Of a stretch of 64,000 nt of DNA, positions 2,892-62,259 are shown piece after piece. The stretch covers positions 62,001 through 126,000 of the forward strand of contig QQVD01000048.1 of NCBI GenBank assembly GCA_003388555.1, read 5' to 3'. Below the pieces are notes generated by a model. It did no database searches, was not told the origin of the DNA, and was given only the letters and a program-made list of their open reading frames with translations. Both the position numbers and the translations under genes were made by a program. The number at the start of each line of letters is the position of its first letter. Position 1 is the stretch's first letter. The DNA comes from Acidobacteriota bacterium (lineage in GTDB: Bacteria; Acidobacteriota; Thermoanaerobaculia; Multivoradales; Multivoraceae).

Positions 2892-4055
2892 ATGGAGCGG
2901 GCAAGCATCTATCTCGGGAAGTCGACCTGGCGGCGCGAAGGGCGTCCGGTCGGCATGCTGCAGGACGACCGCTTCCTCCACATGCTGATCTTGGGTCAGA
3001 CCGGGACCGGAAAGACGACGCTGATCCGGTCCATGGCGCTTCAGGATGCCGCCGCGGGCCGAGGGTTCATGGTCCTCGACCCGCATGGGGATCTTGCGGA
3101 GGATCTGCATCAGGAGCTCATCGCGATGGGCCGCCGACACCGCTACCTCGACCTCGGCCAACTGCGGCCCAATTTCTCGTACAACCCGCTCGCCGATGTC
3201 GAACCCGACAACGAATCCTTCGTCGTCAACTCCATCGTCGACGTGTTCCGCCACCTGTGGACCCTGGACGACGCGCCCCGCTTCGAGCACCTGCTTCGCA
3301 ACGTGCTTTTCGCGCTACTTGCACACGAGAGGCCGTCGCTTCACCTCATCCCCGAGATCCTGGCCGACAAGGCTTTCCGCCGGAGGATCCTGCGCCGCGT
3401 CGAGAACGAGGAGGTCCTTCGGTTCTGGCGCGACGAGTACGACGGCTACAGCGCCAAGTTCCGGGCGGTCGTGGTCGCTCCGCTGCAGAACAAGATCGGA
3501 GCGCTTCTGACGGATCCCAGGCTTCGCCAGGTCCTCGCCGATGGGAAGGGGCGCATCGACCTGCGTCGCGAGATGGACTCCGACGGGATCGTAGTCGTGA
3601 ATCTGGCTAAGGGGAGGGTCGGATCCGGCCCGGCGTCCTTGATTGGATCGTTGCTACTGACGGAATGTGCTCGCCTGGCGTTCACTCGGGCCGATGAGGC
3701 TGAATGGGACCGGCGAGACTTCATCGTCTACGCTGACGAGTTCCACCAGTTCACCACGGGTACTGTGGCCTCGATGCTCTCCGAGCTTCGGAAGTACCGC
3801 GTCGGTGTTGTGCTTGCCGCGCAGTTCATGACGCAGATGCGTCGAGACGTGCGCGACAGCGTTAGCGGCAACGTAGGTTCCAAACTCGTCTTCCGGATCG
3901 GATCGGACGATGCGCAGCACATGGCGGCTGAGTTTGGTCCTCGCTTCGCACTCCTGGATCTGATGGAGACACCGAACTGGCACGCGAAGGTTCGCATCGC
4001 GATAGCCGGAGCACCGTCTAAGGCGTTCTCGATGGAAACTCTGGGCGAGTCCTGA
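2892..4055 (+). CDS. HerA/VirD4-type DNA-translocating ATPase
   Basis: A 387-residue soluble ATPase. Walker A is GQTGTGKTT at residues 35-43, followed by VLDPHGDLAEDL. Walker B is IVYADEFHQF near residue 280, followed by the coupling-protein signature ASMLSELRKYRVGVVLAAQF. These are hallmarks of the TraG/VirD4 (TraM-recognition) and HerA/FtsK DNA-pump families. It has no transmembrane helices and is shorter than typical VirD4, so membrane anchoring would need a partner, perhaps the 4691 protein. Ordered motifs match the larger ATPase at 5384 (DPHGDL, DEFH, the arginine-rich GSDDAQHMA region), so the two are probably paralogous partners in DNA transfer or packaging. Confidence 0.82.
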   Translation: MERASIYLGKSTWRREGRPVGMLQDDRFLHMLILGQTGTGKTTLIRSMALQDAAAGRGFMVLDPHGDLAEDLHQELIAMGRRHRYLDLGQLRPNFSYNPLADVEPDNESFVVNSIVDVFRHLWTLDDAPRFEHLLRNVLFALLAHERPSLHLIPEILADKAFRRRILRRVENEEVLRFWRDEYDGYSAKFRAVVVAPLQNKIGALLTDPRLRQVLADGKGRIDLRREMDSDGIVVVNLAKGRVGSGPASLIGSLLLTECARLAFTRADEAEWDRRDFIVYADEFHQFTTGTVASMLSELRKYRVGVVLAAQFMTQMRRDVRDSVSGNVGSKLVFRIGSDDAQHMAAEFGPRFALLDLMETPNWHAKVRIAIAGAPSKAFSMETLGES

Positions 4056-4690: not shown

Positions 4691-5368
4691 GTGTCTACAC
4701 GTTCACATTGGGCCTGTCTAGTAGAAGGTCTTTCGACATCGGTCCAAGATTCGTATGCAGAGCTGGAAAGTGCACTCAACGCCAGAGAGGTTCCTGAGCT
4801 CACTTTCTCGCGCGTAGAGTACTCGGAGGCCGGCGTCGGTTCCGCTCAACGGGAGTACATGCGGATCACTCGCAAGGACTACGTGTTCGATGTGTGTGCG
4901 GCGCCGTTTGGAAGGTCGTTCTTCTTCAGCTGGTGGATGTCCATCCCTCAGCTCCCGTTTGCCATCCTCTACACAGTTGGCTACTTCGCCGCGATCGTCA
5001 TTGCGACTGCAGCGATCTTTTGGCCGTTCCGGGGATCGTGTTTCGGTTACCTCCTCTTGCCGTTCCTCCCCTTCGGCGCGGGTATCGGCCTACTGTTCCT
5101 CATGCGTATCGGAGCTATCTTCGACGAAGGTGTCGCTTTGAGGATCCCAGTGGTTTCATCCATATACCGGGCATTTTTCGCACCCGAGACGTACTACCGC
5201 TCCGACACACAGAAGATGTTCGAGAAAGCCGTACACAACGCTCTGCTGGAGGTGGTCGATGCAAAGATCTCCGAGCAGGGCCTCCGCGCTCTCGCTCCCG
5301 AGGACCGACGACCGCAGAAGGGTGGTGATCGAACGGATCTTTCTGCGCTCCTAGGTCTCCTTGGGTAG
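4691..5368 (+). CDS. Predicted inner-membrane protein of the element
   Basis: A 225-residue protein with a GTG start preceded by AGAAGGGGGA. A soluble N-terminal region of about 85 residues is followed by two or three strongly hydrophobic segments (about residues 80-140, including LPFAILYTVGYFAAIVIATA and FGYLLLPFLPFGAGIGLLFL). A soluble C-terminal tail of about 80 residues follows. It stops 15 bp before the large ATPase gene, so the two are likely co-expressed. A membrane anchor or channel partner for the soluble ATPases would fit, by inference only. Base composition is lower in GC than the surrounding genes. No family recognised. Confidence 0.6.
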   Translation: MSTRSHWACLVEGLSTSVQDSYAELESALNAREVPELTFSRVEYSEAGVGSAQREYMRITRKDYVFDVCAAPFGRSFFFSWWMSIPQLPFAILYTVGYFAAIVIATAAIFWPFRGSCFGYLLLPFLPFGAGIGLLFLMRIGAIFDEGVALRIPVVSSIYRAFFAPETYYRSDTQKMFEKAVHNALLEVVDAKISEQGLRALAPEDRRPQKGGDRTDLSALLGLLG

Positions 5369-5383: not shown

Positions 5384-8300
5384 ATGGATGCTGCTGTCCG
5401 CACGGCCGCTTTCTACGACTGGGAGATTCGTGGTCGGGGCTGGCTGAGGTGGGACTATCCGGTTCGTCTAGAGCCTCCCTATCGGCCGTACCGGGTCGGT
5501 GGCCTTGTCGCCGGACAGACCAGGGTCATCGACGACGGTCAGCGGCACTCGCCGCTTTCGTCGTGGGTCGAATCGTTCACGCGTCGGCAGATTGCTCCCG
5601 TCGAGGACTCGTTCGACGAGGAGGTGCCTCAGGAAGCGGAAGCCTTGGCCTCCGAGCGCACTCAGGTCCTGCTTCCAGTTGGTACTGGAGTCGGCCTGCC
5701 CGGCATCTTGTCCTGGCTCCACAGTCTGTCGGGCGTTCGGAGCGCGATGGCGCTGGAGATCGAGTGTTCTGAGCGAGGCATCGAGATCTACCTCTCGGGA
5801 TCTGCCGACGACCTTCGCTTCGCGGCGAGCCAACTCTCGCTCGCCGTTCCCGGCGTTGTGCTCCGATCCCCGAAGCATGATCTGCCGGAGCTGGTCGGCT
5901 CGCGACCGATCGGCGATTGGCTGGTTGCGCGCCTCGGTTTGGCTTCGGAGTTCATGGTGCCGATCGCAAAACCGATCTCGGATGAGCCGCTCGAATCACT
6001 GCTTGCGACGATGGCGGATCTCGTCACTGCCGGCGGCGTCGGAGTCGTGCAGCTACTGTTCGAGCCGGTCGATCAGCCCTGGCGAGAGCAGATCCTCTCC
6101 GCGGTGGAGACCCCATCCGGCAAACCGTTCTTCAAGGATGCTCCTGAGGTCACCAGCGAGGCGCGTTCCAAGGTCGCATCGCCGCTGTTCGCGGCCGCGC
6201 TGCGGGTCGCAGTTGCCTCGGACACGCACGAGGAGCTCGTGAGCCGGCTTTCTCGTGTCGCTGGCAGCTTGTCTTTCGCTCGAGATCTCGGCTCCAACGA
6301 GTTGATCATCGTCTCGGTCGAGCGCGATGTGGAACCGCTCATGGAAATCGTGGACCGAGTGACTACTTGGTCCGGGATGCTTCTCTCCGCGGAGGAACTC
6401 GGGATTCTGACCAAGATGCCGGGCAAGGACGTTGCTCTCGAAGCGCTTGTACGGCCTCTGGAGCGCACCAAAGCGGCCCCGAGCATGGTGACAGGCTCTG
6501 GCAACCTCGTTGGCGCCAATGAGCACCTGGACGCACTCAGCGATGTACGGCTGAGCGATTCGGACCGCACCAAGCACGTCCACGTGCTCGGCGCCTCGGG
6601 CGTCGGGAAGTCGACGCTGCTGGTTCGAATGATCCTCAACGACCTGGAGGCTGGCCACGGGGTCGGCGTTCTTGATCCCCACGGCGACCTCGTTCGGGAA
6701 GTTGCCTCGCGGTTGCCCGAGACGCGGCTGCGGGATACAGCCCTCTTCGATCCGAGTTCGAGTGGGCCGGTCGTTGGCTGGAACGTCCTGGAGGCGCGAT
6801 CGGACACGGAGCGCGAGATGCTCACCTCCGACCTGGTCGGAGTCTTTCGACGACTGAGCACCTCGTGGGGCGACCAGATGAACGCCGTCCTGGCGAACGC
6901 GATGATGGTCTTCTTGGAGGAGGAGGTCGACGGAACGTTGGTCGACCTCCGTCAGTTCCTGGCAGATCCGAGCATCCGGCGAAGCGTTCTCGGACAGGTC
7001 AGCGATCCGATGGTCCGGAGCTTCTGGGAGACCGAATTCCCACTGATCGAAAAGCGGCGACCACAGGCTCCGATCCTGACGCGCTTGGACGCCTTCCTGC
7101 GCTCCCGGGCGGTGCGGCGCGTCCTCAACGTCAGGCAGCCCAAGCTGGACTTTCAGAGGCTCCTCGATGACGGGGGCGTCTTCCTCGCGAATCTGAGCAT
7201 GGGCTCGATCGGTGAGGACAACGCGGCGCTGCTCGGATCGCTCTTGGTCTCGCGCTTCCATCAGGTGAGCTTGATGCGCGGACAGCAGGGCGAGGGCGAT
7301 CGCCGTCCGTTCTTCCTCTACATCGACGAGTTTCATCACGTTGCGACCTCTTCGATGGCGTCGTTGTTCTCGGGCGCGCGAAAGTTCCGCCTTGGGCTGA
7401 CCCTGGCGCACCAGGATCTCTACCAGCTCAAGTCCGCTGCGCGAGAGCTTGAACGGTCGCTGCTCGCGAACGCTCACACCCGCATCTGTTTCCGGCTCGG
7501 GGATGACGACGCTCGCGCCATGGACAAGGGCTTCTCGTTCTTCACCGCAGATGACCTCATGAACCTGAAGGTCGGTCAGGCGATCTGCCGGGTCGGGATG
7601 CGGAACGACGACTTCAATCTCGCGACGGAGCGGCTACCGAGAGTGAGCCGCGAGGAGGCTGCGGATCGAGTCGAGCGTGTCCACTCGCACTCGCAAGGCC
7701 GGTGGGGAGTTGAAGAGGTTGCGCTTCGGGATCAACCCGCAGAGGAGACCAGTGACGCCAGGTCGGAATCGCGGGGCAGCAATCCAGATCCGCCTGCGGA
7801 ATCGAAAGACCGTCCACCGAGGAAGTCATCGCCCGAACCGGAGGAAGAGCCAAGTCTCTCGAAGGCGCTGCTCGACTTTCTGGAGTCGGTTGCACGAGAA
7901 CCACTGCTGGGGGTTCGCGAACGCAACGCTCGGCTGGGCCTCAGCGCTTGGGACGGCAGTCAGCGAAAGAGCGAGCTACTCGAGGACGAGCTCGTGCGCG
8001 AGGTCGAAATCAACCCCGGCGGCCGCGGGAGCCAGTTCAAGCTCCTCGAGCTGACCACCAAGGGGCGCGACGTTCTTTCGAAGTACGAGATCCAGACCAC
8101 TACCGGTCTCGGTCGTGGAGGCGTCGCCCACCAGTGGTGGGTCCAGCATGTTGCCTCACACCTAGCCGAGCGCGGCGTGAAGGCAACGACCGAGGACGAG
8201 TCCATGGGTGCTCGAGTCGACCTACTAGCCATGATCGATCGGAAGAGGACCGCAGTCGAGATCGACTTCCGGCAAGAGCAAGCCATTCACAACGTCCGTA

Positions 8301-8728
8301 AGGACGCCGAAGCTGGGTTCAAGCACATCGTGAGCTTGGTCGACGGTTTCGAGGTCGCTGACTCTGTCCGCGCTGCGGTCAGCGACCTCGAAACCGCGAC
8401 CGTCGCGGTCGCGGATCTCCGGGAATTCGAATCTGTTCTCGAATCCCCAGCACCGCCGAACCAGAACAAAGAACCAGGTGGTAGCCGGCGCCGACGCCAG
8501 GCCAAGCAGGCTCGCCCGCAGCCTGTGCCGATCGTCCTGGAGGGCGGCGTCCTCGATACGCCAATGGCTGCGAGCTATCTGGGACTGAGTCCAGCAACCC
8601 TGGAAACCATGCGATCTAGGGGCGGAGGGCCTCGCTTCTCGAAGCTCGGGCGACGCGTCGTCTATCGACGCGAAGAGCTTGATCGGTGGCTCGAAGAGCG
8701 CTCCCAGCGTTCTACCAGCGACCAATAG
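5384..8728 (+). CDS. Large DNA-pump ATPase fused to nuclease-like and excisionase-like HTH domains
   Basis: A 1114-residue protein. Residues 1-390 form an N-terminal region of unknown fold. The HerA/VirD4 ATPase core has Walker A GASGVGKST near 402, DPHGDL, Walker B LYIDEFHHV near 645, and the sensor-like stretch RKFRLGLTLAHQD. A disordered, charged linker lies about 775-830. A winged-helix-like segment (EVEINPGGRGSQFKLLELTTKG) lies about 865-905. A PD-(D/E)XK-like segment (GARVDLLAMIDRKRTAVEID) lies about 940-962. The last 60 residues are an AlpA/excisionase HTH_17 domain (AASYLGLSPATLETMRSRG, then a wing). This tail closely matches the excisionase at 16139. The gene ends 80 bp before the att core. 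Function is inferred as DNA translocation linked to the element end. Confidence 0.75.
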   Translation: MDAAVRTAAFYDWEIRGRGWLRWDYPVRLEPPYRPYRVGGLVAGQTRVIDDGQRHSPLSSWVESFTRRQIAPVEDSFDEEVPQEAEALASERTQVLLPVGTGVGLPGILSWLHSLSGVRSAMALEIECSERGIEIYLSGSADDLRFAASQLSLAVPGVVLRSPKHDLPELVGSRPIGDWLVARLGLASEFMVPIAKPISDEPLESLLATMADLVTAGGVGVVQLLFEPVDQPWREQILSAVETPSGKPFFKDAPEVTSEARSKVASPLFAAALRVAVASDTHEELVSRLSRVAGSLSFARDLGSNELIIVSVERDVEPLMEIVDRVTTWSGMLLSAEELGILTKMPGKDVALEALVRPLERTKAAPSMVTGSGNLVGANEHLDALSDVRLSDSDRTKHVHVLGASGVGKSTLLVRMILNDLEAGHGVGVLDPHGDLVREVASRLPETRLRDTALFDPSSSGPVVGWNVLEARSDTEREMLTSDLVGVFRRLSTSWGDQMNAVLANAMMVFLEEEVDGTLVDLRQFLADPSIRRSVLGQVSDPMVRSFWETEFPLIEKRRPQAPILTRLDAFLRSRAVRRVLNVRQPKLDFQRLLDDGGVFLANLSMGSIGEDNAALLGSLLVSRFHQVSLMRGQQGEGDRRPFFLYIDEFHHVATSSMASLFSGARKFRLGLTLAHQDLYQLKSAARELERSLLANAHTRICFRLGDDDARAMDKGFSFFTADDLMNLKVGQAICRVGMRNDDFNLATERLPRVSREEAADRVERVHSHSQGRWGVEEVALRDQPAEETSDARSESRGSNPDPPAESKDRPPRKSSPEPEEEPSLSKALLDFLESVAREPLLGVRERNARLGLSAWDGSQRKSELLEDELVREVEINPGGRGSQFKLLELTTKGRDVLSKYEIQTTTGLGRGGVAHQWWVQHVASHLAERGVKATTEDESMGARVDLLAMIDRKRTAVEIDFRQEQAIHNVRKDAEAGFKHIVSLVDGFEVADSVRAAVSDLETATVAVADLREFESVLESPAPPNQNKEPGGSRRRRQAKQARPQPVPIVLEGGVLDTPMAASYLGLSPATLETMRSRGGGPRFSKLGRRVVYRREELDRWLEERSQRSTSDQ

Positions 8729-8738
8729 GGGGCGTCGC

Positions 8739-8760
8739 CGTGATGGTACCGTGATGGTAC
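8739..8760 (+). repeat. Tandem 11-bp repeat beside the att core
   Basis: Two perfect, adjoining copies of CGTGATGGTAC (8739-8749 and 8750-8760) begin 10 bp after the ATPase-HTH gene and lie 48 bp from the att core. Spacing of one helical turn suggests a protein-binding site such as an arm site or excisionase site of element 1. Confidence 0.5.
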
Positions 8761-8807: not shown

Positions 8808-8854
8808 TGGAGCCGATGAGCGGACTTGAACCGCTGACCTGCTGATTACGAATC
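8808..8854 (-). repeat. Attachment-site copy: 3' half of tRNA-Thr (attL of element 2)
   Basis: Identical over 47 bases to 18166-18212. It reproduces the tRNA from the CCA end through the T-arm to the anticodon loop. The sequence diverges immediately at both edges, as expected for a recombination core. It cannot encode a full tRNA because the 5' half is missing. Confidence 0.93.
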
Positions 8855-8936
8855 GGGAGGTCGGCGATGCCAGATCCGGCTCAAGAATCAGGTTTTATTA
8901 GGTTCTCAGCCGGGACAAGAATCGGGCAGCGGGGGG

Positions 8937-8957
8937 CGTGTAAGCGCATAGTAAGCG
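8937..8957 (+). promoter_or_regulatory. Probable integrase arm-type site, left end
   Basis: A 21-bp site with the core GTAAGCG-N4-GTAAGCG pattern lies 83 bp inside the left att core. It matches 18029-18049 at 20 of 21 positions in the same orientation. A further GTAAGCG lies at 9075-9081. Arm-type binding by the tyrosine integrase is inferred. Confidence 0.6.
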
Positions 8958-9383
8958 CCAGGGACGAAATCGCGGACCTCAGGAAACCTCAACTGCCGAC
9001 GCGGCGACGGCGGCAGGGTGCGGTCCGCCAGGATGCGGGGCCGGAAAATGGGACCCACGGCTCCAGCCGCCTCCGTAAGCGAGGTTGTGCCTGCCATAGG
9101 GTATCCATCGAGCCATAGGGTTTCCCCGGCCGGCGCCAACGGAAGGACCAAAGGCCCGCCCGTCATTCGCGGTGTTGGCCGACCTTCCGGGACTCTCGCA
9201 TCGACCTCGCCAGGGACCGCCTCGCGTGCGCGTAGACCGTGCGGTGAAGCGGCCAGGCAAGCCGGCTCAACTATCCAGTTCTCGGAGGTCGTTGGCGGAG
9301 GCCGATCCCGCTAGCGAGGATCCTGCGACCGGCCCTCGCGTGCGCGTAGGAGCTGTCAGCTGGGGCGTCGAGTTTTTAAGGGC

Positions 9384-12300
9384 TCAGAGGTCTAAAAGGG
9401 GCAGTTCGTCGATGATCTCGAGTGTTCGCATCGAGACCGTGACGACGGAGCACAGCAGGTCGTAGATGTAGCTCGGTTGGTCGTGCTCGATCGCCCAGTC
9501 GTTGGGGTCGTTGGTGATGCCGGACTTCTTGTGCGTCTTGACCTGGTACTGGTTGAGGATCCAGTCGACCGCGGAGCGTGAGCCGAGCTGGTACTCGTGG
9601 GCACGCTCAGGGATGCCGCCGACGGCGATGCGCCGGTTGACCACGACCCGCGTCTTGTCGTCGACCTTCTTCTTGGACATAGGGTCGGTGACCTTCGGGT
9701 AGCGCATCTTCTCGACTCGCCAGTGCTTCGGGTTGCGGGCATCGAAGTCCTCGGCGAAGGTCGTCTCCAGATCCGGCCACGCCTCGACTTCCTCATAGCG
9801 CAGGTGCAGATCCGCGAGGGCTCGCCCTGCCGTCGCGAAGGCCCAGAAGGTCTCCGCCGACTCGACGGGAGGTATGCGCGGCAACGCCTTCTTCAGGTCG
9901 GCAGCGAACGCTTTACGGTACCGCGGCGAGTGCAGGATGCCGTAGACATGGAAGAAGACATCCTCGTCTGTGATCGAGGGGTCGAGCCGGCGGTAGCGGC
10001 CGATCGCTGCGTCCGAGACGTTGGGTTGCCAGCCCGTTGGCTGTTGGTCATCGAAGAGCCCCGGATCGAACGCGCTGGCGTCGCCCTCGAACGTTCGGAG
10101 CGGGAAACATCGGATCGCGTCTATGTAGATCTTGCTGTCAGGGATCCTGTCGACGATCAAGACCGAGAAGGGAACTCGAGATCCGGCCTCGGTAAGCGTG
10201 ATGGTCGGAGTTCGCGAGTCCGAGGACGGGAAGAGGCGAGGTAACTGATATGTGCGGTTGTTTAGTGCCGGCTGCGCGAGCACGAAGCGCCTCTCGAACG
10301 GCCGATAAGTCGCCACGTGGAATGCGGACTCGTCTACGGAGTGTGCCTCACCGCTGACGATACGAACGAAGTCTGAGTGATCCCAGCTAAACGACCTCTC
10401 GTCGTAGCTGACAAACTCCTTCGCCGCCTGCCTCTTGGCCGGGGCCTTGCCGCCAAGCTGAGGATGTGCCGCCCTGAACCGGCGAAGCTCATCGTTGAAG
10501 AACTCCACCATGCGGCGCACGTTGGCCCGTAGCTTGGCCTGACTGCTGTTGTAGTTCCAAGCATCTCTTGAGGTCACCAGCCCACTCGTACGCATCGCGA
10601 AGATGCTCTGGTCGTCGCCGGGTTCGCAGAGGGGCGGGTAGTCGAAGAAGCGGTCCGACCGCTGGTTGATCCAGTCTCCGTGTTCGTTGGGCTTCACGGT
10701 CCGCCAGGGAACCGCCTCCAATGTCGACTCGGCCGCCGCATCCGATCGGAGCTGCGAGAGCTTCTGCGAGCGCGTGAGGTAGTCGCCGATGTCCCGGTAG
10801 TGGAGCTTCGCGCCGGCCGGCGGCACGTCGCCAGATCCACGGACCGCCAGCAGAATAGCGACCGTGGCGCGGCTCCCTTGTCCGAAGATCTTGCCGCCTT
10901 CTCTGCGTGACCGTTCGCCGGCGGTCCTCTGATTCCCGCGCAGGTTGTACACGTAGAGATGGTGGAACTCGCCACCAAGCGAGAGCCGGAGACCATCGGC
11001 GACGTTCGAGTCGATGTAGCCGCCGTTCGAGACGTAGGCCACGATGCCGCCGGCACCGTTCTCGAGGATCCGGTCGGAAGCCCAGCGAATCGCCCGGATG
11101 TAGCTGTCGTAGAGGCTGTTCTTGAGCGTGGCCGTAGATCGTGCCGCGTAGGTGTCCGCGATGCGCTCGTCGAGCCTCGGGTACTTGAGGTTCTGGGTGT
11201 TGTCGTTGGCCGATGTCTGCCCGACGGACCATGGCGGATTGCCGAGAACCACCCGAATCGGTAGCGATCGCTGCCGATCGGCGCGCTTGTTGTTCGATCC
11301 GAAGAGATCGATGTTGCTGCCGGAGCCTTCTTCGCTGAGTTGGAAGGTGTCGGTGAGCACGATCCCGGGGAAGGCCTGGTACGGCCGATCAGCTCCCACT
11401 CCGGCCGTCAGGTCGTGGTAGGACGCTTCGATGTTGATCGCCGCGATGTAGTAGGCGAGCAGGAGGATCTCGTTGGCGTGTAGCTCGGTGGCGTACTTGC
11501 GCGCCAGGTCATGTGGCGAGATCAGTCCCGACTGCAGCAGGCGCACGAGGAAGGTGCCGGTGCCAGTGAACGGGTCGAGGATGTGCACGTCCTCGTCGGT
11601 GAGGGAGCAGTTGAGATGTCTTCTCAAGGCGCCGTCTGTCGCCTGAACGATGAAGTCCACGACCTCGATCGGCGTGTAGACGATGCCCAGCTGGTCGGCG
11701 GTCTTCGGAAGCGCCTTGGCGAAGAAGCGCTCGTACAGCTCGGTGATGATGCGCTGCTTGCCCTCCGCGTTGTCGATGCCTTCTGCGCGGAGCTTCACGT
11801 CTCGGTAGAAGCCAGCCAACGTGTCCCGATCCTTGTCGAGGCTGTGCTCGTCGAGACGGTCGATCATGCGCTGCATGGCTCTGGACACAGGGTTGGAGCC
11901 GATGAAGTCGTAGTCCTCGAAGAGGGCCTCGAAGACGGGCCGGGTGATCAGGTGCTGTGAGAGCATGCCGATCGCGTCGTCCGTATCGATCGAGTCGTTG
12001 AGGTTGGCCCGCAGGCCGGCCACGAAGCCCTCGAAGGCTTCGCCTACGTTGAGGCTCGGGTCATCGATGAGACTGTGAATGCGGGTCTCGTGTCTGGCGG
12101 CGATCGCCGCGATGTCCGTTGCCCAGTCTTCCCAGTAGTGCCGGGTGCCGACCTTCTTGACCAGTTGGGCATAGATGGCGTCGGAGACCTCGCCAATGGG
12201 GAAGCCGAGCGTGAGCTGGTGGGCTCCGGCGCCGCCCTCCTCTTCTTCGTCGCCCAAGTCGAGGCTCTGGGGCTCGCCCATGCCGCCGTGCTCGACTTCG

Positions 12301-14237
12301 ATCATGTCGGGGCGCTCGTTGTTGACTTCGAGCTGGTTGACGACGGCGTTGAGCCGCTCGTCGTGGGAGCGCAGCGCGTTCAGAACCTGCCAGACCACCT
12401 TGTAGGCCTGATTGTCGGCCAGGGCTTCCTCGGGCTTGAGGTTGGCTGGGATGCCGATCGGCAGGATGACGTAGCCGAGCTTCTTGCGACCCGAGGGATC
12501 CCGTCTCATGACGCGGCCGACCGCCTGGATCACGTCGACCATCGAGTTCCGAGGCTCGAGGAAGATCACGGCGTCGAGCGCCGGCACGTCGACGCCTTCG
12601 GTGAGGCATCGAGCGTTCGAGAGGATCCGGATCCGATCCTCGCCGACGTCCTGTGCGAGCCAAGCTAGCTTCTGTTCGCGTTCGAGCGCGTTGTGCCCTC
12701 CGTCGACGTGGTCTACCTCCACGGTGACGTCCAGATCGGAAACGGCGAGGTCGAAGCGGTCGGCAACCTCGCTGAAGAGGGCCGCGAACTCCTGCGACTG
12801 CGCGATGGTGTTGTTGAACGCTAGCGCCGTCTGCATCGGCGTCGCGTCGGTCTGTGAGAACGCCTTCCCTCTGGCGTTCCTCTTGGTCAGGGCGTTCAGG
12901 CAACCGACCATCTTCGCGGCTCCCTCGAGCCGCAAGTCGTGGTCCTCGTCTGAGATGAGGTCCTGGAAGGCAGTCGAAACCGATCCCTCGTCGACCGCGA
13001 GCACGAGCACCTTGTAGTCGGTCAGCAGGCCGCGATCCACGGCCTCTCGAAAGCCGACCCGGTGGAACTCGGGACCGAAGGTGCCGTCGTCGTCCATCGA
13101 GGCCAGGACGGCCGACTCGGCGTCCGCCTTGGCCTTCGTGCCGTCGCTGTAGACCCGCGGCGTAGCGGTCATGTAGAGGCGCTTGGCCGCTCCGATCTGC
13201 TCGTTGTCGTGCACCCGGGTGAAGTTGGAGTCCTCGTCGCCAACGAGGGTGACGCCCGTCGTCCTGTGCGCTTCGTCGCAGATCACCAGGTCGAAGGGTT
13301 CGAGCCCGAGCCTCTGTGCGTCCGCGATGACCGATGTGGACTGGTAAGTCGAGAAGATCGCCCGTAGGTGGCCCTCGGGTGCGCGTCCGAGGTTCGCCAG
13401 CAGGACCTCTGCGTCGGTCGTCGCCGGCACAACTAGGTCGAAGGGTGAGATGTCTTCCTGGTCGCCTCTGGTGCCCGCCTTGGTGTCCGAGCAGACCGCG
13501 AAGGGCGTCATCGGCAGGGACGACCAGGCCGCCCACTCTTTGACGGTCTGAGAGAGCAGAGAGATCGAAGGCAGGAGCACGAGCACCAGACCGCCTTCGC
13601 CGGCGATGCGTTCGGCGATGAGTTGGCCAGTGAACGTCTTGCCCGTGCCGCAGGCCATGATGAGCTTGCCGCGGTCGTGCTGGCCGAAGCCGGCGATCAC
13701 GTCCTCGATCGCGGTCTGTTGGTGGGGCAGAGGCTTGCGGGTCTTCCGCCGCAGCGGCCCCGGACTATCCGCCCGCCAGGCGCCCCAGTCGACTCCGGAC
13801 TCGGCGAGGTCTGGCAGGGTGAGGCGCAGGGTCGGCTTGTCCTGGTCCTCGATCGCGTTGATCAAGTGCGTCGACCAGTTCGAGGTCGTCGCGATCAGCA
13901 TTCGCTCGGTGAACGGCGGTTTGCCCGATCGAGCGAAGAAGGTTCCGGTGTCTTGGAGCGTCAGGGAAGACGACTCCGTATAGAACTTGCACTGGATCGC
14001 CGTGAAGCCCGAGCCGTCGGCGTGTTCGGCGATGAGATCGATCCCCGTGTCGACTTCGCCGGCGTTCCCGGTCCAGTCCTCCCATAGCCACACTTGCCGG
14101 AACTTCGTCGCCCACTGCGGCGCGACCCGCAGGAAGCCCAGCATCAGGCGCTCGAAGCGCTTGCCCTTCTCGTGCTCCGAGAGCGAAAGCTCGCGGATCT
14201 CCCTCAAGACGCGATCGAGTTCGCGATGTCCAGACAT
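9384..14237 (-). CDS. Type ISP single-polypeptide restriction-modification enzyme
   Basis: A 1617-residue protein, close in size and domain order to LlaGI/LlaBIII. The Mrr-like nuclease lies at about 25-125 (Asp67, Gln82-x-Lys84). The SF2 helicase/translocase has Walker A ACGTGKT at 195-201 and DEAH near 320. A coupler follows. The gamma N6-adenine methyltransferase has DPFTGTGTF near 889 and NPPW near 1000. A C-terminal target-recognition region follows. Known family members methylate one strand of an asymmetric site and use head-on translocation to cut unmodified DNA. All catalytic motifs look intact. The start has a GAGGGGCTGAGG ribosome site. It is last in the leftward operon and is the main cargo of element 2. 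Confidence 0.93.
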   Translation of the reverse strand: MSGHRELDRVLREIRELSLSEHEKGKRFERLMLGFLRVAPQWATKFRQVWLWEDWTGNAGEVDTGIDLIAEHADGSGFTAIQCKFYTESSSLTLQDTGTFFARSGKPPFTERMLIATTSNWSTHLINAIEDQDKPTLRLTLPDLAESGVDWGAWRADSPGPLRRKTRKPLPHQQTAIEDVIAGFGQHDRGKLIMACGTGKTFTGQLIAERIAGEGGLVLVLLPSISLLSQTVKEWAAWSSLPMTPFAVCSDTKAGTRGDQEDISPFDLVVPATTDAEVLLANLGRAPEGHLRAIFSTYQSTSVIADAQRLGLEPFDLVICDEAHRTTGVTLVGDEDSNFTRVHDNEQIGAAKRLYMTATPRVYSDGTKAKADAESAVLASMDDDGTFGPEFHRVGFREAVDRGLLTDYKVLVLAVDEGSVSTAFQDLISDEDHDLRLEGAAKMVGCLNALTKRNARGKAFSQTDATPMQTALAFNNTIAQSQEFAALFSEVADRFDLAVSDLDVTVEVDHVDGGHNALEREQKLAWLAQDVGEDRIRILSNARCLTEGVDVPALDAVIFLEPRNSMVDVIQAVGRVMRRDPSGRKKLGYVILPIGIPANLKPEEALADNQAYKVVWQVLNALRSHDERLNAVVNQLEVNNERPDMIEVEHGGMGEPQSLDLGDEEEEGGAGAHQLTLGFPIGEVSDAIYAQLVKKVGTRHYWEDWATDIAAIAARHETRIHSLIDDPSLNVGEAFEGFVAGLRANLNDSIDTDDAIGMLSQHLITRPVFEALFEDYDFIGSNPVSRAMQRMIDRLDEHSLDKDRDTLAGFYRDVKLRAEGIDNAEGKQRIITELYERFFAKALPKTADQLGIVYTPIEVVDFIVQATDGALRRHLNCSLTDEDVHILDPFTGTGTFLVRLLQSGLISPHDLARKYATELHANEILLLAYYIAAINIEASYHDLTAGVGADRPYQAFPGIVLTDTFQLSEEGSGSNIDLFGSNNKRADRQRSLPIRVVLGNPPWSVGQTSANDNTQNLKYPRLDERIADTYAARSTATLKNSLYDSYIRAIRWASDRILENGAGGIVAYVSNGGYIDSNVADGLRLSLGGEFHHLYVYNLRGNQRTAGERSRREGGKIFGQGSRATVAILLAVRGSGDVPPAGAKLHYRDIGDYLTRSQKLSQLRSDAAAESTLEAVPWRTVKPNEHGDWINQRSDRFFDYPPLCEPGDDQSIFAMRTSGLVTSRDAWNYNSSQAKLRANVRRMVEFFNDELRRFRAAHPQLGGKAPAKRQAAKEFVSYDERSFSWDHSDFVRIVSGEAHSVDESAFHVATYRPFERRFVLAQPALNNRTYQLPRLFPSSDSRTPTITLTEAGSRVPFSVLIVDRIPDSKIYIDAIRCFPLRTFEGDASAFDPGLFDDQQPTGWQPNVSDAAIGRYRRLDPSITDEDVFFHVYGILHSPRYRKAFAADLKKALPRIPPVESAETFWAFATAGRALADLHLRYEEVEAWPDLETTFAEDFDARNPKHWRVEKMRYPKVTDPMSKKKVDDKTRVVVNRRIAVGGIPERAHEYQLGSRSAVDWILNQYQVKTHKKSGITNDPNDWAIEHDQPSYIYDLLCSVVTVSMRTLEIIDELPLLDL

Positions 14238-14330
14238 CCTCAGCCCCTCTTCCCTGGATTCGGTTGCTCGAGTCTAAGGCCGGGAGAGCCCACGAAGCCG
14301 GGCCGAAGCCGCACTGGTCCCAAACTCGCC

Positions 14331-14360
14331 ACCAAGAACACCAGAAAGGGGCTTCTTGGT
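14331..14360. promoter_or_regulatory. Dyad upstream of the Type ISP gene
   Basis: ACCAAGAA and TTCTTGGT form a perfect 8-bp inverted repeat with a 14-base spacer, in the 147-bp gap before the Type ISP start. There is no T-run on either strand. It may be an operator delaying nuclease expression. Confidence 0.3.
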
Positions 14361-14384
14361 GTTCCTGGTAGGGCTTCTGGAGAC

Positions 14385-15683
14385 TCACCGCATCCGCATG
14401 GCCGGCGGTATGAAGACCAGTGACTCGACGGGTCGCCCGCCTGTCTCGGCTCGCTGCAACCGAGCGAAACCGGAGCAGATCGCGATGCGGAAGAAGTGCT
14501 CACCCGAGCGCCGCCAAGGTCCCTGTTCGTGGTGCCGAAACTCAGTCTTGGACACGGGGTTCGGGTACGCGTCGCGCAGCACCTCGAGCAGGAGATCGAG
14601 ATCGGGGCTCCCCAATCGGTCGCCGAAGACCCGCTCAGCGGTCGCCGTGGAGTACCGCCAGAGGGCCAAGGCCGCCTCGAGGTGGTGTTGTTGGATCGTG
14701 GTGTCTTGATCCAGCAGCGCGTAGATCAGAGCCAGCCTGTGGACCTGGACGGGACCTCGCTTGGTAATGCAGCCCACCATGCTGTCCCCGACGCTGGACA
14801 GGCGCGGGTACACGGCCTTCCAGAGTTCACGCGTCGCGGCGCCATGGTCGAGTGTTTCGGCCGTCTTGCCGTACTCGATGGCCTCCGACAAGCGGTCGGC
14901 GAAGTCCTTGAGGGAATCCCAGGCCGGAGGCTCCGGGTAGGGCAGCTCGCCATGTCTTCGGGCGAAGACCCAGAGGAAGCGGTTGGCGAAGCCGTTTCCG
15001 GCGTGTTCCGGGGTGAGATAGCGATTGAGGTCGACTGGGGTGACTTGGGCGACGATGGAGAGATGTACTCCCGTCGCTTTTTCGTCTCCACCTCCGGAGG
15101 CCTTGACCATGTTCTGGAGCGTGTCGCGATCGAACGCCTCTCGGAGCATCGGAGAAAGGGAGTTGCCGTCGCGCCGGGCGTTGCCGAGCACTCTCGCGAA
15201 CTCTTCCTCCACGGCGAGCAGGCGCTTGTCGCCTTCCCCCGGATCGGCCCCTCTCGGGTCTCGCACCTTCCACAGGAGGCCCTCGCCCGAGTTCAAGCCG
15301 CTACACACCCTCTCCCTATACCAAGGGTCGTCCAGCGCCTCGCAGGCAAGCTCGTACGGCCTTCTAGCCTCGGTGAGGGCAGTGCCCTTGCGTGCGGCTG
15401 AGTCGCCTACGACCAGGACGAAGAGGTTGGCGTAGTGACGCTCTTGGCCGACTCGATAGTGCGCGCTTCTGCCGATGGCGTTGCCGAAGAAGGCCAGGAA
15501 GATCGCCAAGATGGCCGCCGGGTCGGCTTCGGTCTGGCTGGCTCGAAGACGCACGTACTCGCCGGCGAGTCCGATGAGCGCTGCGTCGTCCAGTCGGAGT
15601 TCGACGCTGGAGTCGTCGGGCTCAGCGGTTTCCGGCGTGAACGCCCGAGAGACGGCTGCGAGTCGAGCAGCGGTCACGCTCAT
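14385..15683 (-). CDS. DUF3987 (YfjI-like) P-loop protein of the element
   Basis: A 432-residue protein. The start ATG at 15683 overlaps the upstream stop (ATGA at 15680-15683). The ORF is open to 16031, but that part is the neighbouring gene's shadow. A modified P-loop, VVGDSAARKGTA, lies about residue 95, with a Walker-B-like LLAVEEEFARVL near 170, as is typical of DUF3987. The C-terminal part (QVHRLALIYALLD, then a winged-helix-like tail) also fits. DUF3987 proteins sit beside primases or zinc ribbons on satellites and plasmids and probably act as replicative helicases. Here it pairs with the zinc-ribbon protein just upstream, suggesting element replication. Confidence 0.75.
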   Translation of the reverse strand: MSVTAARLAAVSRAFTPETAEPDDSSVELRLDDAALIGLAGEYVRLRASQTEADPAAILAIFLAFFGNAIGRSAHYRVGQERHYANLFVLVVGDSAARKGTALTEARRPYELACEALDDPWYRERVCSGLNSGEGLLWKVRDPRGADPGEGDKRLLAVEEEFARVLGNARRDGNSLSPMLREAFDRDTLQNMVKASGGGDEKATGVHLSIVAQVTPVDLNRYLTPEHAGNGFANRFLWVFARRHGELPYPEPPAWDSLKDFADRLSEAIEYGKTAETLDHGAATRELWKAVYPRLSSVGDSMVGCITKRGPVQVHRLALIYALLDQDTTIQQHHLEAALALWRYSTATAERVFGDRLGSPDLDLLLEVLRDAYPNPVSKTEFRHHEQGPWRRSGEHFFRIAICSGFARLQRAETGGRPVESLVFIPPAMRMR

Positions 15684-16135
15684 CGGTCGCGCCCTTTCGT
15701 ATCGGAGCACTGCTCGAGGAAGGGTAGCCACTGGTCCGCGCCGCGAGGCCGCGGACGGAGCTGAGTAGCGATGTCGAGCGCCTGGATGAGTGCTTCCGGG
15801 CTCGCACCACCCCTTAGGAGAGGTCCAAGTGCCTCGACGAAGAGACGCTGCGCGTCCAAGTTGGCGGCCTCGAACATCCAACCGGTGGCCAGGTCGAAGA
15901 TGCGCTCGTCGCGCCTTGCAAAGGCCTGCTGCGTCTCCGCGTTTCCGAGACATCCGCAGCCGGCGCAACTCCAAGCTCGTACTGTTGGGTCCTGGATGTA
16001 GTCGGCACCGTGCACCTTGCAAGCGGGGCACGTGATTTCGGTGCTGACGAGACCGGTGGAGGCTGGCAAGGACGGAAAACGAACAGCGGTCGTCGACCGG
16101 AAGGCCGCGCCCCGGCTCGCCTGCGGCTGTTCCAC
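15680..16135 (-). CDS. Zinc-ribbon protein, possible primase-associated
   Basis: A 151-residue protein with a GTG start at 16135, three bases after the excisionase stop. Residues about 36-60 hold two Cys pairs (CPAC, then CAGC after 17 intervening residues), forming a likely zinc ribbon like those of CHC2 primases. The rest is helical, with no visible Toprim or primase motif. It overlaps the DUF3987 gene by four bases (ATGA). Together the two may be a split primase-helicase for the element, by inference from position. The zinc site is well supported; the function is not. Confidence 0.6.
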   Translation of the reverse strand: MEQPQASRGAAFRSTTAVRFPSLPASTGLVSTEITCPACKVHGADYIQDPTVRAWSCAGCGCLGNAETQQAFARRDERIFDLATGWMFEAANLDAQRLFVEALGPLLRGGASPEALIQALDIATQLRPRPRGADQWLPFLEQCSDTKGRDR

Positions 16136-16138
16136 GGG

Positions 16139-16342
16139 TCAGCTCGCCTCACTCGTCGAGAGTCGAGCGTTGCGCTCGACGTAGTCCTCGAGGTCCGCTA
16201 GTCGGTAGCGCACCAGACGCCCGACCTTCGAGTATCGAGGTCCTGAGCCGGTCAGTCTCCAGTTCTCGAAGGTGCGGGGCGAGACACCGAGGAAGGCGGC
16301 GGCCTCCTTGGTGCTTAGGAAGGCATTCCTGCGCTCGATCAT
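16139..16342 (-). CDS. AlpA-like excisionase (HTH_17)
   Basis: A 67-residue protein made of a single MerR-like winged helix: STKEAAAFLGVSPRTFENWR, then GPRYSKVGRLVRYRLADLEDYV. Such proteins are recombination directionality factors or integrase activators (AlpA of P4-type islands). The ATG at 16342 starts the domain directly. The longer frame to 16570 adds only an unlike Arg-rich stretch. It is the first gene after the integrase gap and leads the operon ending in the Type ISP enzyme. Its sequence aligns almost end to end with the tail of the ATPase at 5384-8728. Confidence 0.82.
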   Translation of the reverse strand: MIERRNAFLSTKEAAAFLGVSPRTFENWRLTGSGPRYSKVGRLVRYRLADLEDYVERNARLSTSEAS

Positions 16343-16835
16343 TCGGCAGTACTCCTGTAGAGCCTGCCGACCCGGCCGCAGGGCGTTGGTCAACTGCCGG
16401 GCGAAATCCCTTGACCGGGCGGGGCTTTCCGCTACGATTTGGGGGCTTCCGAGGTCAACGGCGTCTGGTCGCCAAACTGTTCGCCGCTGGTCTCGTCGCT
16501 CGGCCGACCTGCCACTTGGTGGGTCGGCTTTCTTCGTTTTGGGATCGCAACAGAGCGTTCCCGAGCGCAATTCTTACCACGTGATCGTAGTGCCCGCAAG
16601 CACACCACAAGGTCGCTTGGAATTCCGCAAGCGACCGTGGCGCAAGGGTCTGCGCGATTCGCGTACGGTTTCCTTGGGTGTGTACACAGAGCGTGTACAA
16701 GTGCATCCTCAAGTGCTCGCGAAGCTACTTTCTACCGACATTCTTTAGTCTTTGCCCGAGGTTATCTTGTAGATCTCGGTGTTGAGGATCGCAGACGTGA
16801 AGATCACGCCCTCGAAGTCGGGCTTCTTGAAGGGA
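16343..16835. other. Non-coding gap between integrase and excisionase operon
   Basis: About 490 bp with no convincing gene on either strand. It is less GC-rich than its surroundings and likely holds the promoter for the leftward excisionase-to-Type ISP operon. It contains one plus-strand terminator-like hairpin. Confidence 0.5.
16503..16540 (+). terminator. Terminator-like hairpin in the integrase-excisionase gap
   Basis: A 7-bp stem GCCGACC / GGTCGGC (16503-16509 and 16522-16528) is followed by TTTCTTCGTTTT. It has the form of a rightward intrinsic terminator, but no plus-strand gene precedes it. It could end a small RNA or block antisense transcription. Confidence 0.4.
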
Positions 16836-18008
16836 CTAGCGAGTGGGACCCAATGCAGCCGCTATGTCGCCGGCGATGCTCTCGGCCGCGTCTCGCACCG
16901 GGTCCTCTCTCAGGTGGGCGTAGCGTTGCGTCGTCGACTGCTGCTTGTGGCCCAAGAGCTTTCCGGTGATGTAGAGGCTCTGGCCGGAACTCACCGCGGA
17001 GGACCCGAAGTTGTGCCGCAGATCGTGGAGCCTCACGTCCTCGAGGCCCGCCGCGGCGCGGATGCGGCCCCACACCTTCGGCAGGCCCACCAGGGCCGCT
17101 CCCGGTCTCTTCCCGGTGATCACGTAGGGATTGCCCTCGAGGTGCTCAGCAGCGGCCAGGAGCTGCGCTACGGGTGCGGTGAGAGGTAGGGCCTTCGCTC
17201 CGGTCTTCGAGTCCGGCAGCCGGATCTCACGGCGCTCGAAGTCGACGTCCTGCCACCGAAGGCCAAGAACCTCCCCGACGCGCATGCCGGTCAGTAGCAG
17301 GATGCGCAGTGCGAGGACTGCGCTGGCTGGGGCGCTTGCGTCACGCTCGGCGCTTCTGAGAGCTTCGGCGACCCGCTCCACTTCCCCTCGGGTCAGGTAG
17401 CGCTCGCGCCGAGTCTCGCGGTACCGCTTCACCCGTGTGCATGGGTTGGTGCCATCGAACCGGCCACGCTCGGCGGCATGGTTGAGCATGCTCTGGAGGT
17501 AAGCGAGTGCCCGATTCGCCATCGTCGGGCGGGTCTTCCCGATGGCTTGGTGGAAGCGCTCGACATCGGTGCGGGTGAGGTCCTCCGCCTTGAGCCTCCC
17601 GATACGGTTGCCGAGGATCTCGGCGTTGATGCAGCGCTCGGCTTCGCGCAGGGTCGACGCCTTGGCCTTCGGCCTCAGGTGCTCCTCGATGTAGTGGCGA
17701 GCCAAGTCGCCGATCGTGGGAGCCTTCGCGCCCTGCCTGCGATCTTCGGCCGGATCACTCCCTCCGGCGATATCGCCGAGCACCCGTTGAGCCTGTGTCC
17801 GTGCCTGCTGTGGAGTCAGCTGGCCGTGACGTCCCAGTGTGAGCCTTCGTGTGCGCCCGTTGCGGGTGCGGTACTGGACCACGTAGGCCTTAGTACCGCC
17901 GGCGCTGACGCGCAGGCCGAATCCCTTCAGCTCAGCATCCCAGAAGAAGACCTGGTTGCGGCCCTCGGGAACCGTCGCAGCGTCCACCGCCCGCTTGGTG
18001 AGCTTCAT
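16836..18008 (-). CDS. int: Tyrosine-family site-specific integrase
   Basis: A 390-residue phage/P4-type integrase. The N-terminal arm-binding DUF4102-like region (MKLTKRAVDAATVPEGRNQVFFWDAELKGFGLRV) is followed by a SAM-like core-binding domain, about 100-190. The catalytic domain shows Arg in LLTGMRVGEVLGLRW, Lys in SKTGAKALPLT, HDLRH, LLGHKQQ and the nucleophile Tyr in TTQRYAHL. All are present, so it should be active. It recombines the tRNA-Thr core at 18166-18212. The position next to the tRNA 3' end and the leftward orientation are standard for this class. Confidence 0.95.
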   Translation of the reverse strand: MKLTKRAVDAATVPEGRNQVFFWDAELKGFGLRVSAGGTKAYVVQYRTRNGRTRRLTLGRHGQLTPQQARTQAQRVLGDIAGGSDPAEDRRQGAKAPTIGDLARHYIEEHLRPKAKASTLREAERCINAEILGNRIGRLKAEDLTRTDVERFHQAIGKTRPTMANRALAYLQSMLNHAAERGRFDGTNPCTRVKRYRETRRERYLTRGEVERVAEALRSAERDASAPASAVLALRILLLTGMRVGEVLGLRWQDVDFERREIRLPDSKTGAKALPLTAPVAQLLAAAEHLEGNPYVITGKRPGAALVGLPKVWGRIRAAAGLEDVRLHDLRHNFGSSAVSSGQSLYITGKLLGHKQQSTTQRYAHLREDPVRDAAESIAGDIAAALGPTR

Positions 18009-18028
18009 CGCCTCGCCCCTCCCCCGCC

Positions 18029-18049
18029 CGTGTAAGCGGATAGTAAGCG
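18029..18049 (+). promoter_or_regulatory. Probable integrase arm-type site, right end
   Basis: The 21-bp partner of 8937-8957, with one mismatch and the same orientation. It lies between the integrase start and the tRNA, 116 bp from the att core. It also sits where it could control integrase transcription. Confidence 0.6.
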
Positions 18050-18165
18050 GGCGGCAGCGTATCAGCCGGTAAGCCGGCGCAGCCGAGCGGACCAGTGTGC
18101 CGGCGCCCGAGCGGCTCCGAGCCCTTATTTTACGGGCCTCAGCGTAGTCTCTGTGGTCTGGGCGC

Positions 18166-18212
18166 TGGAGCCGATGAGCGGACTTGAACCGCTGACCTGC
18201 TGATTACGAATC
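18166..18212 (-). repeat. Attachment-site copy within tRNA-Thr (attR of element 2)
   Basis: This 47-bp stretch is identical to 8808-8854. It covers the CCA end through the anticodon loop, the usual crossover segment for integrases that target tRNA 3' halves. Confidence 0.93.
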
Positions 18213-18240
18213 AGCTGCTCTACCGCTGAGCTACATCGGC
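18166..18240 (-). tRNA. tRNA-Thr (anticodon CGU)
   Basis: A complete 75-nt cloverleaf including an encoded CCA. The acceptor stem is GCCGATG/CATCGGC, the D stem is GCTC/GAGC, and the anticodon stem is GCTGA/TCAGC with loop TTCGTAA (anticodon CGT). The variable loop is AGGTC and the T-arm is AGCGG-TTCAAGT-CCGCT. The 3' half is the integration target, and the gene remains whole because the element restores it. Confidence 0.95.
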
Positions 18241-61816: not shown

Positions 61817-62259
61817 GCGCGGCCTCGCTCCTCCGAGAGTCGCTCCTGCAACGGGAGATGGGGCCCGGATGGCGTGCGGACTACCGCGGGTCGCCACGAC
61901 CACAGATCCGTCATCTCCGCCACCTCTTCACGTCTCCGCCTCGGTCGCCTCCTCTCCGTCACCCTGCACTCGCAACCAAGGTCCACCCCTGGCGGACTGC
62001 GGCTCGTTCCTCGGTCGCACCCTGAGGCGAGCCGGATGACTGGGAAACCCCGCACGCCGAAGCGAGCGGCAGCGAGCTGAGCCGCACGATCGGCAGTGTG
62101 AGCCTGCGAACCCTGACGGTCGTTCCTCGGTCCTCCCCCTGAAGAAGGGGGAGGAGGCGGGGGTGGGGTCGGCTCGCGACGTTGCGGTGTGCGGCTCTTT
62201 GCCCTGTCTTCCCAGCGCCTGTGCCAACCTCCGGGCACGAACCACCGAGGAGGCCGCCG
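61817..62259. repeat. Intergenic region with degenerate dispersed repeats
   Basis: A 443-bp gap with no supported gene. It holds GAGCCGGATGACTGGGAAACCC at 62030-62051, close to a part of the 21653-21708 repeat, and CCTCCCCCT-GAAGA-AGGGGGAGGAGG near 62132-62157. GTTCCTCGGTC also occurs twice. It is a decayed relative of the repeats at 21125-21752. Confidence 0.6.

Follow-up and report, generated by a model that had tools for sequence, protein, structure and literature searches.

The window analysed here (64,000 nucleotides from an Acidobacteriota bacterium, positions 62,001 to 126,000 of contig QQVD01000048.1) contains, at the right end of an integrated element, a gene in which a DNA-pump ATPase ends in a domain of the excisionase, or recombination directionality factor (RDF), type. 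Such a fusion, encoded at an element end, had been proposed in a preliminary description made from the letters alone, and it is borne out: the gene is single and intact, its ATPase and HTH_17 domains are recognised by Pfam and it is conserved in related genomes. The explanation that we consider probable is that the tail is itself the RDF, binding an att arm, working with the integrase to excise the element and, by being fused, placing the pump on the freed circle. Sequence comparison shows that the fusion exists and is conserved, that the tail has an RDF fold and lies at an att end or beside an integrase gene, and that tail and tyrosine recombinase go together. The gene and its domains are as follows.

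5384..8728, plus strand: pump-excisionase fusion gene, 1114 aa (single open frame, Pfam, intact homologues)
6521..7693, plus strand: TrwB/HerA-type ATPase domain, residues ~380-770, with Walker A GKST at 408 and Walker B YIDEF at 646
7859..8083, plus strand: MarR-like winged helix, residues ~826-900 (AlphaFold2 model and structure matches)
8117..8443, plus strand: a/b domain with a PD-(D/E)XK-like order of elements, residues ~912-1020 (model, alignment A1, weak Pfam match)
8552..8704, plus strand: HTH_17 excisionase (RDF) domain, residues 1057-1107 (Pfam 7e-11, RdfS profile match, Foldseek 8dgl)

The 1114 codons are open without a break up to the stop codon at 8726-8728, and encode, from N to C terminus, an N-terminal domain, the TrwB/HerA-type ATPase, the MarR-like winged helix, the PD-(D/E)XK-like domain and HTH_17. 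A frameshift or assembly error joining two genes, which had been raised as a concern, is ruled out by intact full-length homologues of 1117, 1151 and 1130 aa. The ATPase has a TrwB_AAD_bind match at residues 388-523 (1.5e-6) that exceeds the Pfam cut-off. An AlphaFold2 model of the full-length protein is poor (pLDDT 42.5), and Foldseek with that model returned nothing at E <= 0.001; the model of residues 812-1114 has a mean pLDDT of 80 and comprises a MarR-like winged helix-turn-helix (wHTH), an a/b domain and a terminal helix-turn-helix (HTH)-wing-helix. The winged-helix-like segment noticed at the outset is thus recovered, as is the HTH fold of the tail, on which the preliminary description had made its reading depend; VIA-align on the structure model lists the wHTH alone. 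The suspected PD-(D/E)XK-like segment fares less evenly: the order of its secondary-structure elements in the model fits the core of that fold (alpha-beta-beta-beta-alpha-beta), and D946 and E959 are invariant in alignment A1, but the canonical lysine two residues after E959 is absent and the restriction-enzyme-like Pfam match at 921-971 is weak (0.21). Homology of the wHTH and nuclease-like part with Replic_Relax was considered and rejected, the profile comparison being not significant (0.6% and 0.2% probability).

The gene closes element 1, which spans 62 kb from contig 8670 to 70854. The stop codon is followed after 79 bp (the approximately 80 bp of the preliminary description) by a 47-bp att core, a further copy of which, the third, lies at contig 8670-8716; from the three copies we read elements 1 and 2 as standing in tandem at the same tRNA-Thr. 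The tyrosine integrase of element 1 is at its far left end, outside the window (contig 8867-10099), and has an arm-binding domain (Arm-DNA-bind_3). Element 2 (8808-18212) carries a Type ISP restriction enzyme, a primase-like protein and an ordinary excisionase (Xis) beside its integrase (Int).

8808..8854, no strand: 47-bp att core common to elements 1 and 2, an exact copy of the tRNA-Thr(CGT) 3' end
18166..18240, minus strand: tRNA-Thr(CGT), the target gene
16139..16570, minus strand: ordinary stand-alone excisionase of element 2, for comparison
16836..18008, minus strand: tyrosine integrase of element 2, for comparison

Several comparisons place the tail among excisionases. The HTH_17 match at residues 1057-1107 (Pfam 7e-11) covers profile positions 2-51 of 51. 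As first described, the last 60 residues align with the excisionase of element 2 (16139-16570, minus strand), without gaps and down to a shared STS, at 45% identity and with E=1e-13 for that pair. A tail profile run against the PDB sequences found RdfS, the excisionase of ICEMlSym, at 5.9e-12 as the sole entry below E 0.1, and RdfS is also the best structure match of the model of residues 812-1114 (Foldseek 8dgl, rmsd 0.6 over 52 columns). The C-terminal HTH-wing fold is therefore, at the level of sequence, related to a proven RDF, although unlike the typical small, separate RDF proteins it is part of an 1114-aa ATPase. The tail is the only strong frame for the HTH profile in element 1 (E1) and in the elements of the related genomes G002 and G027, RDF families unlike the tail not having been searched for.

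A whole-protein search gives a match in 35 of 98 relatives. Within the order, the tail profile finds a match in 15 of 72 genomes, many of them to short HTH proteins; the 14 matches below E 1e-28 fall at 12 places and belong to nine of the 72 genomes. Homologues do carry the tail: four intact full-length fusions are present (the window, G002, G063:C40 and G027:C13, with G for genome and C for contig), the three in other genomes being 46-59% identical to the window gene. The genes of G063:C197 and G034:C68 run off their contigs, and G059:C154, G059:C197, G029:C2, G003:C479 and G029:C21 are tail-only copies or remnants. In G059:C197 and G029:C2 the frame changes upstream of the tail; a programmed frameshift near residue 930 was considered, no shared slip site was seen, and the changes are taken as probable decay. 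Identity to the window gene is 68-80% in the HTH domain (five rows), 55-73% in the ATPase (six rows) and 31-44% in the N-terminal part (four rows), making the tail, as aligned, the best conserved part of the protein. The preliminary description had called for a search for the same fusion beside att sites in other genomes, and in 11 of the 12 places a distance of 59-139 bp separates the tail stop from the 3' end of a tRNA (complete in 10 cases) or, in the window, from an att copy. Five kinds of tRNA are represented: Arg(ACG) twice, Ala(GGC) four times, Phe(GAA) and Pro(GGG) once each and Thr(CGT) three times.

The tail can also be approached from the integrase, a search for which across the 72 genomes found 21 places at E < 1e-60. 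The 11 closest integrases (at least 240 residues at no less than 53% identity) formed the count, from which the short pieces G063:C74, G044:C52 and G062:C153 and seven places at 37-40% identity were left out. In seven of the 11 the opposite end has a tail. Among these are G059:C154, where the right att is not seen, and G034, with one element end probably on contig C24 and the other on C68, both having the same tRNA-Ala core. The contig of G059:C10 did not show the right end of the element, and the remaining three of the 11 (G062:C154, G040:C303 and G040:C229) are without a tail. By blastp, four proteins are common to the four delimited large elements (E1, G002:C51, G027:C13 and G051:C366), namely the integrase, the second ATPase, a 225-aa protein and the pump-tail protein, with the integrase just inside the far att at 53-66% identity.

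Loss of the pump has not always meant loss of the tail. G059:C197 is a small element, with 4.1 kb between its att copies, that encodes an FG-GAP protein and the same integrase, together with a frame for the tail alone and without the ATPase. G059:C154 is a probable small element of a similar kind, with a sulfatase and with integrase and tail in the absence of the ATPase; only one or neither of its ends is seen. Their tails differ by dN 0.054 and dS 0.79 over 58 codons, and this low dN relative to dS implies that the tail stayed under selection, with the reservation that part of the divergence could predate the loss of the pump.

The association between tail and recombinase type was then followed across the phylum with a profile of six pumps, which matched in 24 of 396 genomes at E < 1e-60; 22 loci were examined in detail. 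Where a tyrosine integrase occupies the expected place, six of six pumps are tailed (E1, G002, G027:C13, G051, G202 and G240). In G202:C9 and G240:C17, which belong to one genus, the HTH_17 matches (6.5e-11 and 1.7e-9) have a tyrosine integrase directly downstream, followed in G240 by tRNA-Met. Two partial loci raise the count to eight of eight: G244:C38 (HTH_17 2.6e-14; integrase ~84 bp on, then tRNA-Arg), with only the ATPase end in view, and G396:C38 (HTH_17 2.3e-11), where the stop and the beginning of the integrase gene overlap and a tRNA-SeC is called next. By contrast, none of the three pumps with a serine recombinase frame directly downstream is tailed (G404:C36, G027:C116 and G226:C11). 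Fisher's exact test gives 0.012 for six against three and 0.006 for eight against three, the rows being related and not independent. Since the pump of G027:C116, which has no tail, groups as sister (100/100) with the tailed one of G027:C13, the tail was probably lost in the C116 line. At G226:C11 (L165:7994-8953) the recombinase is a remnant, a serine recombinase C-terminal part with its own HTH_17 end abutting tRNA-Thr, and the pump without a tail lies upstream. Rows kept out of the count were those in which the recombinase or gene end is not in view (G272, G355, G328 and G162), G232 and G003:C1171 (wHTH and nuclease-like part without the HTH, no recombinase found), the decayed G002:C44, and eight ATPases of another group matching only at 340-770 (G123, G114, G167, G252, G197, G089, G061 and G060). 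In two of these eight, G197 and G060, a tyrosine-recombinase match lies at another place on the contig, and there is no tail.

Between the gene and the att core lies the perfect 11-bp tandem repeat of the preliminary description, one position to the left of the 8739-8760 given there.

8738..8759, no strand: perfect 11-bp tandem pair CCGTGATGGTA, probable integrase arm site, with a matching pair near contig 8822 (integrase end, outside the window)

A tandem pair of this kind follows the tail stop in nine of the 12 places; the stop codons of G002 and G051 are themselves the first TGA of the pair. At the opposite end of the five delimited elements, a pair with matching core letters precedes the integrase in the same direction, as TGATGGTAC in E1, TGATTGCC in G002 and G059:C197, and TGATTGCT in G027 and G051; a pair also precedes the integrases of G059:C10 and G062:C154, for neither of which a tail was found. 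Element 2 carries a pair of its own, GTAAGCGNATAGTAAGCG, at 8940 and 18032. The proposal that the repeat is the target of the tail is therefore not supported in the form given, and the candidate role of an operator for the tail itself is weakened likewise: since the pairs occur at both element ends and before two integrases for which no tail was found, and the E1 integrase has an arm-binding domain, they are more likely to be integrase arm sites.

The arms at the integrase end contain, in the stretch from core to pair, TTTGC-like repeats spaced by 10 bp that may be better candidates for RDF sites; 13 such pairs in eight arms compare with 1.0 expected from shuffles, for a motif picked by eye from the same arms. 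A motif-free lag test, which is fairer, gives a count of 56 at lag 10 in these arms; among 500 shuffles the mean at lag 10 was 6.5 and the largest 33, and the largest at any lag was 38. In the tRNA-end arms the sole outstanding lag is 11, that is, the tandem pair itself. According to PMC7498355, RDFs bind direct repeats about one turn apart, and according to PMC11963761 RdfS shows no consensus binding motif. The arm of the tail-less G062:C154 also has 10-bp-spaced repeats. A separate motif like TAAGTNNTTGATTCT, with variations, immediately precedes the 3' ends of several different tRNAs and occurs in more than one family (right arms L033-L035, L038-L040, L042 and L043; L167 near 10820).

Under the explanation favoured here, the HTH_17 domain would be the directionality factor of tRNA-targeted tyrosine-integrase elements, translated as the tail of a DNA-translocating ATPase. 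It would bind direct repeats in the att arm, turn the integrase towards excision and keep the pump on the excised circle, such that the element would leave the chromosome only once the pump had been made and was already on DNA. We infer the binding, the excision, the coupling and the cargo of the pump, and likewise that the pump is steered to its own element end, as had been suggested. A stronger version can be offered only tentatively: by analogy with FtsK at dif, the ATPase activity or assembly of the pump, and not just binding by the tail, might control the integrase, in which case a loaded DNA motor would license excision and then carry the freed circle. We know of no such motor control of mobile-element excision.

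Several observations weigh against the tail being the RDF. The G051 gene is frame-broken, and its element holds a second, weaker HTH_17-like frame. The tail of G059:C154, the exception among the 12 places, is followed by neither a tRNA nor a repeat, and three elements with integrases of the same clade (G062:C154, G040:C303 and G040:C229) have no tail at the tRNA end. In the comparison of recombinase types, the ATPase is not in view in G396 and mostly not in view in G244; G226, with a tyrosine-recombinase match beyond the tRNA, is the weakest of the three serine cases; and E1, G002, G027:C13 and G063:C40 have a separate serine recombinase elsewhere. Furthermore, HTH_17 domains often act as transcription regulators.

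It is unlikely that the tail is a targeting module only, recruiting or orienting the pump at the att end or on the circle while excision is left to another factor or to none. The pump's own ATPase and winged helix, and the three tail-less elements, would suit such a role. Against it, two small elements, one delimited and one probable, retain the tail next to the same integrase but have no ATPase, pumps next to serine recombinase frames lack the tail, and E1, G002 and G027 show no further strong frame of the HTH type. An AlpA-type autoregulator or repressor of the element operon, near att through chance gene order, seems less plausible still: the regulatory habit of HTH_17 domains favours it, as does the name of PHROG 66, which covers both excisionase and transcriptional regulator, but a location near the 3' ends of five tRNA kinds in 11 of 12 places, and the pairing with tyrosine integrases, argue otherwise. 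There is little to commend a part in a defence or packaging machine instead of transfer, a view that draws on the ATPase shared with MAD8 and phage proteins (PADLOC mad8 2.5e-23; PHROG 5156 1e-52; relatives in phages such as SPO1 and G), on PADLOC mad2 at 1.6e-20 on the element-2 restriction enzyme, and on NCBIfam MAD1, an HTH protein, at 0.0026 on a tail-only copy; the mad8 match is to the ATPase part only, that of mad2 is far below the best family, REase_MTase_IIG (1966 bits), and the gene is tied to int and att. Accidental, functionless read-through of a pump into an old xis gene, for which the degraded copies in G029, G003 and G051 might speak, can practically be dismissed: three other genomes have intact genes at 46-59% identity, no part of the protein is better conserved than the tail, and other families have a diverged form.

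The proposed HerA/VirD4-type assignment of the pump stands on the TrwB_AAD_bind match, while the term 'conjugation-type' is uncertain given the phage relatives, the ATPase-related plasmids, of which 191 of 212 are predicted non-mobilizable, and the results for PF03432: no relaxase of this family was found in G000 (the genome of the window), G002, G051 or G063, and the two of G027 lie on other contigs; no search was made for further relaxase or pore families. The NCBIfam coupling-protein models give the pump scores well short of their curated cut-offs, and no 19-residue Kyte-Doolittle window in it reaches 1.6 (largest 1.56); the adjacent 225-aa gene has such windows. Beyond the phylum, viral, phage and plasmid collections and an exact-peptide scan were covered. 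Alignment A1 found nothing in viral contigs (78 stretches), and among the matches listed for A2 (at least 10 loci) there were only short HTH matches. Residues 812-1114 are unmatched in the phages. No plasmid record covers 80% of any of three pump queries; 110 records match residues 812-1114 without any covering more than 80%, and the matches listed fall within the HTH end or slightly before it. The scan of genome contigs with exact peptide patterns, which detects close relatives only, gave four loci, from Acidobacteriota or Acidobacteria.

Two further genes of element 1 precede the fusion gene.

4691..5368, plus strand: gene for a 225-aa protein that has hydrophobic stretches, 15 bp ahead of the pump gene and conserved in that position
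2892..4055, plus strand: second TrwB-type ATPase of element 1

The 225-aa protein is a possible membrane partner of the pump. Close to the second ATPase there is a Replic_Relax gene in the elements of G027 (C13:132886-133539) and G051 (C366:28477-29115); the genome of the window yielded no such gene. RadC, a RuvC-like protein and a serine recombinase are each present in three of the four delimited large elements, the last in pump-tail elements at L007:4165-5694 and in relatives in G002, G027 and G063, with 509-524 aa in E1, G002 and G027. Copper and heavy-metal genes abound in the cargo of element 1 (L004-L006, contig 11605-55211), among them those for a multicopper oxidase, for CusA/CusB-like efflux and for P-type ATPases; metal or efflux families were found in nine of 15 cargo ORFs scanned with Pfam, smaller ORFs lying outside the scan. 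The G002 element carries a GajA/GajB-like (Gabija) defence pair (L049:7584-10945). Element 2 (8808-18240) has an ordinary order, with Int adjoining the tRNA, a stand-alone Xis beside Int, and Type ISP restriction-modification cargo.

Mobile elements must time excision and transfer, which as far as we know is done by separate proteins and gene regulation. Here excision and DNA-movement functions appear to be joined in one polypeptide, and the recurrence of the join in related bacteria suggests coupling. The element family is present in nine of 72 genomes of one order, at five tRNA kinds, and families elsewhere in the phylum have diverged relatives of it. It offers a way to test whether a recombination switch and a DNA motor can be physically joined, and the natural contrast between pumps with a tail beside a tyrosine integrase and those with none before a serine recombinase offers a ready-made control.

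No precedent for a pump-excisionase fusion was found in the literature searched, which comprised open-licence papers only. The closest relative of the tail, RdfS of ICEMlSym-R7A (Mesorhizobium), has the same fold and ~50% identity over the HTH-wing core; it serves the tyrosine integrase of an integrative and conjugative element, and is needed for excision and conjugation according to PMC11963761. RdfS is a small separate protein, whereas here the domain is the tail of an 1114-aa ATPase. With the TrwB/VirD4/TraD coupling proteins the pump has in common the P-loop ATPase core with Walker A and B; it differs in having no 19-residue hydrophobic window of 1.6 or more, in its added wHTH, nuclease-like and RDF domains, and in a genome without a PF03432 relaxase. 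Replic_Relax (PF13814) and its ATPase possibly share the order of wHTH followed by a/b domain, although the profile comparison with the C-terminal part of the pump is not significant. FtsK is a translocase whose C-terminal winged helix controls the tyrosine recombinase XerCD at dif; FtsK gamma touches XerD and is itself no RDF, while here the tail is of RDF type and the recombinase a phage-type integrase. TraB of the actinobacterial AICEs resembles the pump as a single DNA pump with a winged helix, which in TraB reads repeats; it has no excisionase domain, and its Xis is separate. The parts are each known singly, and the apparent novelty lies in their fusion.

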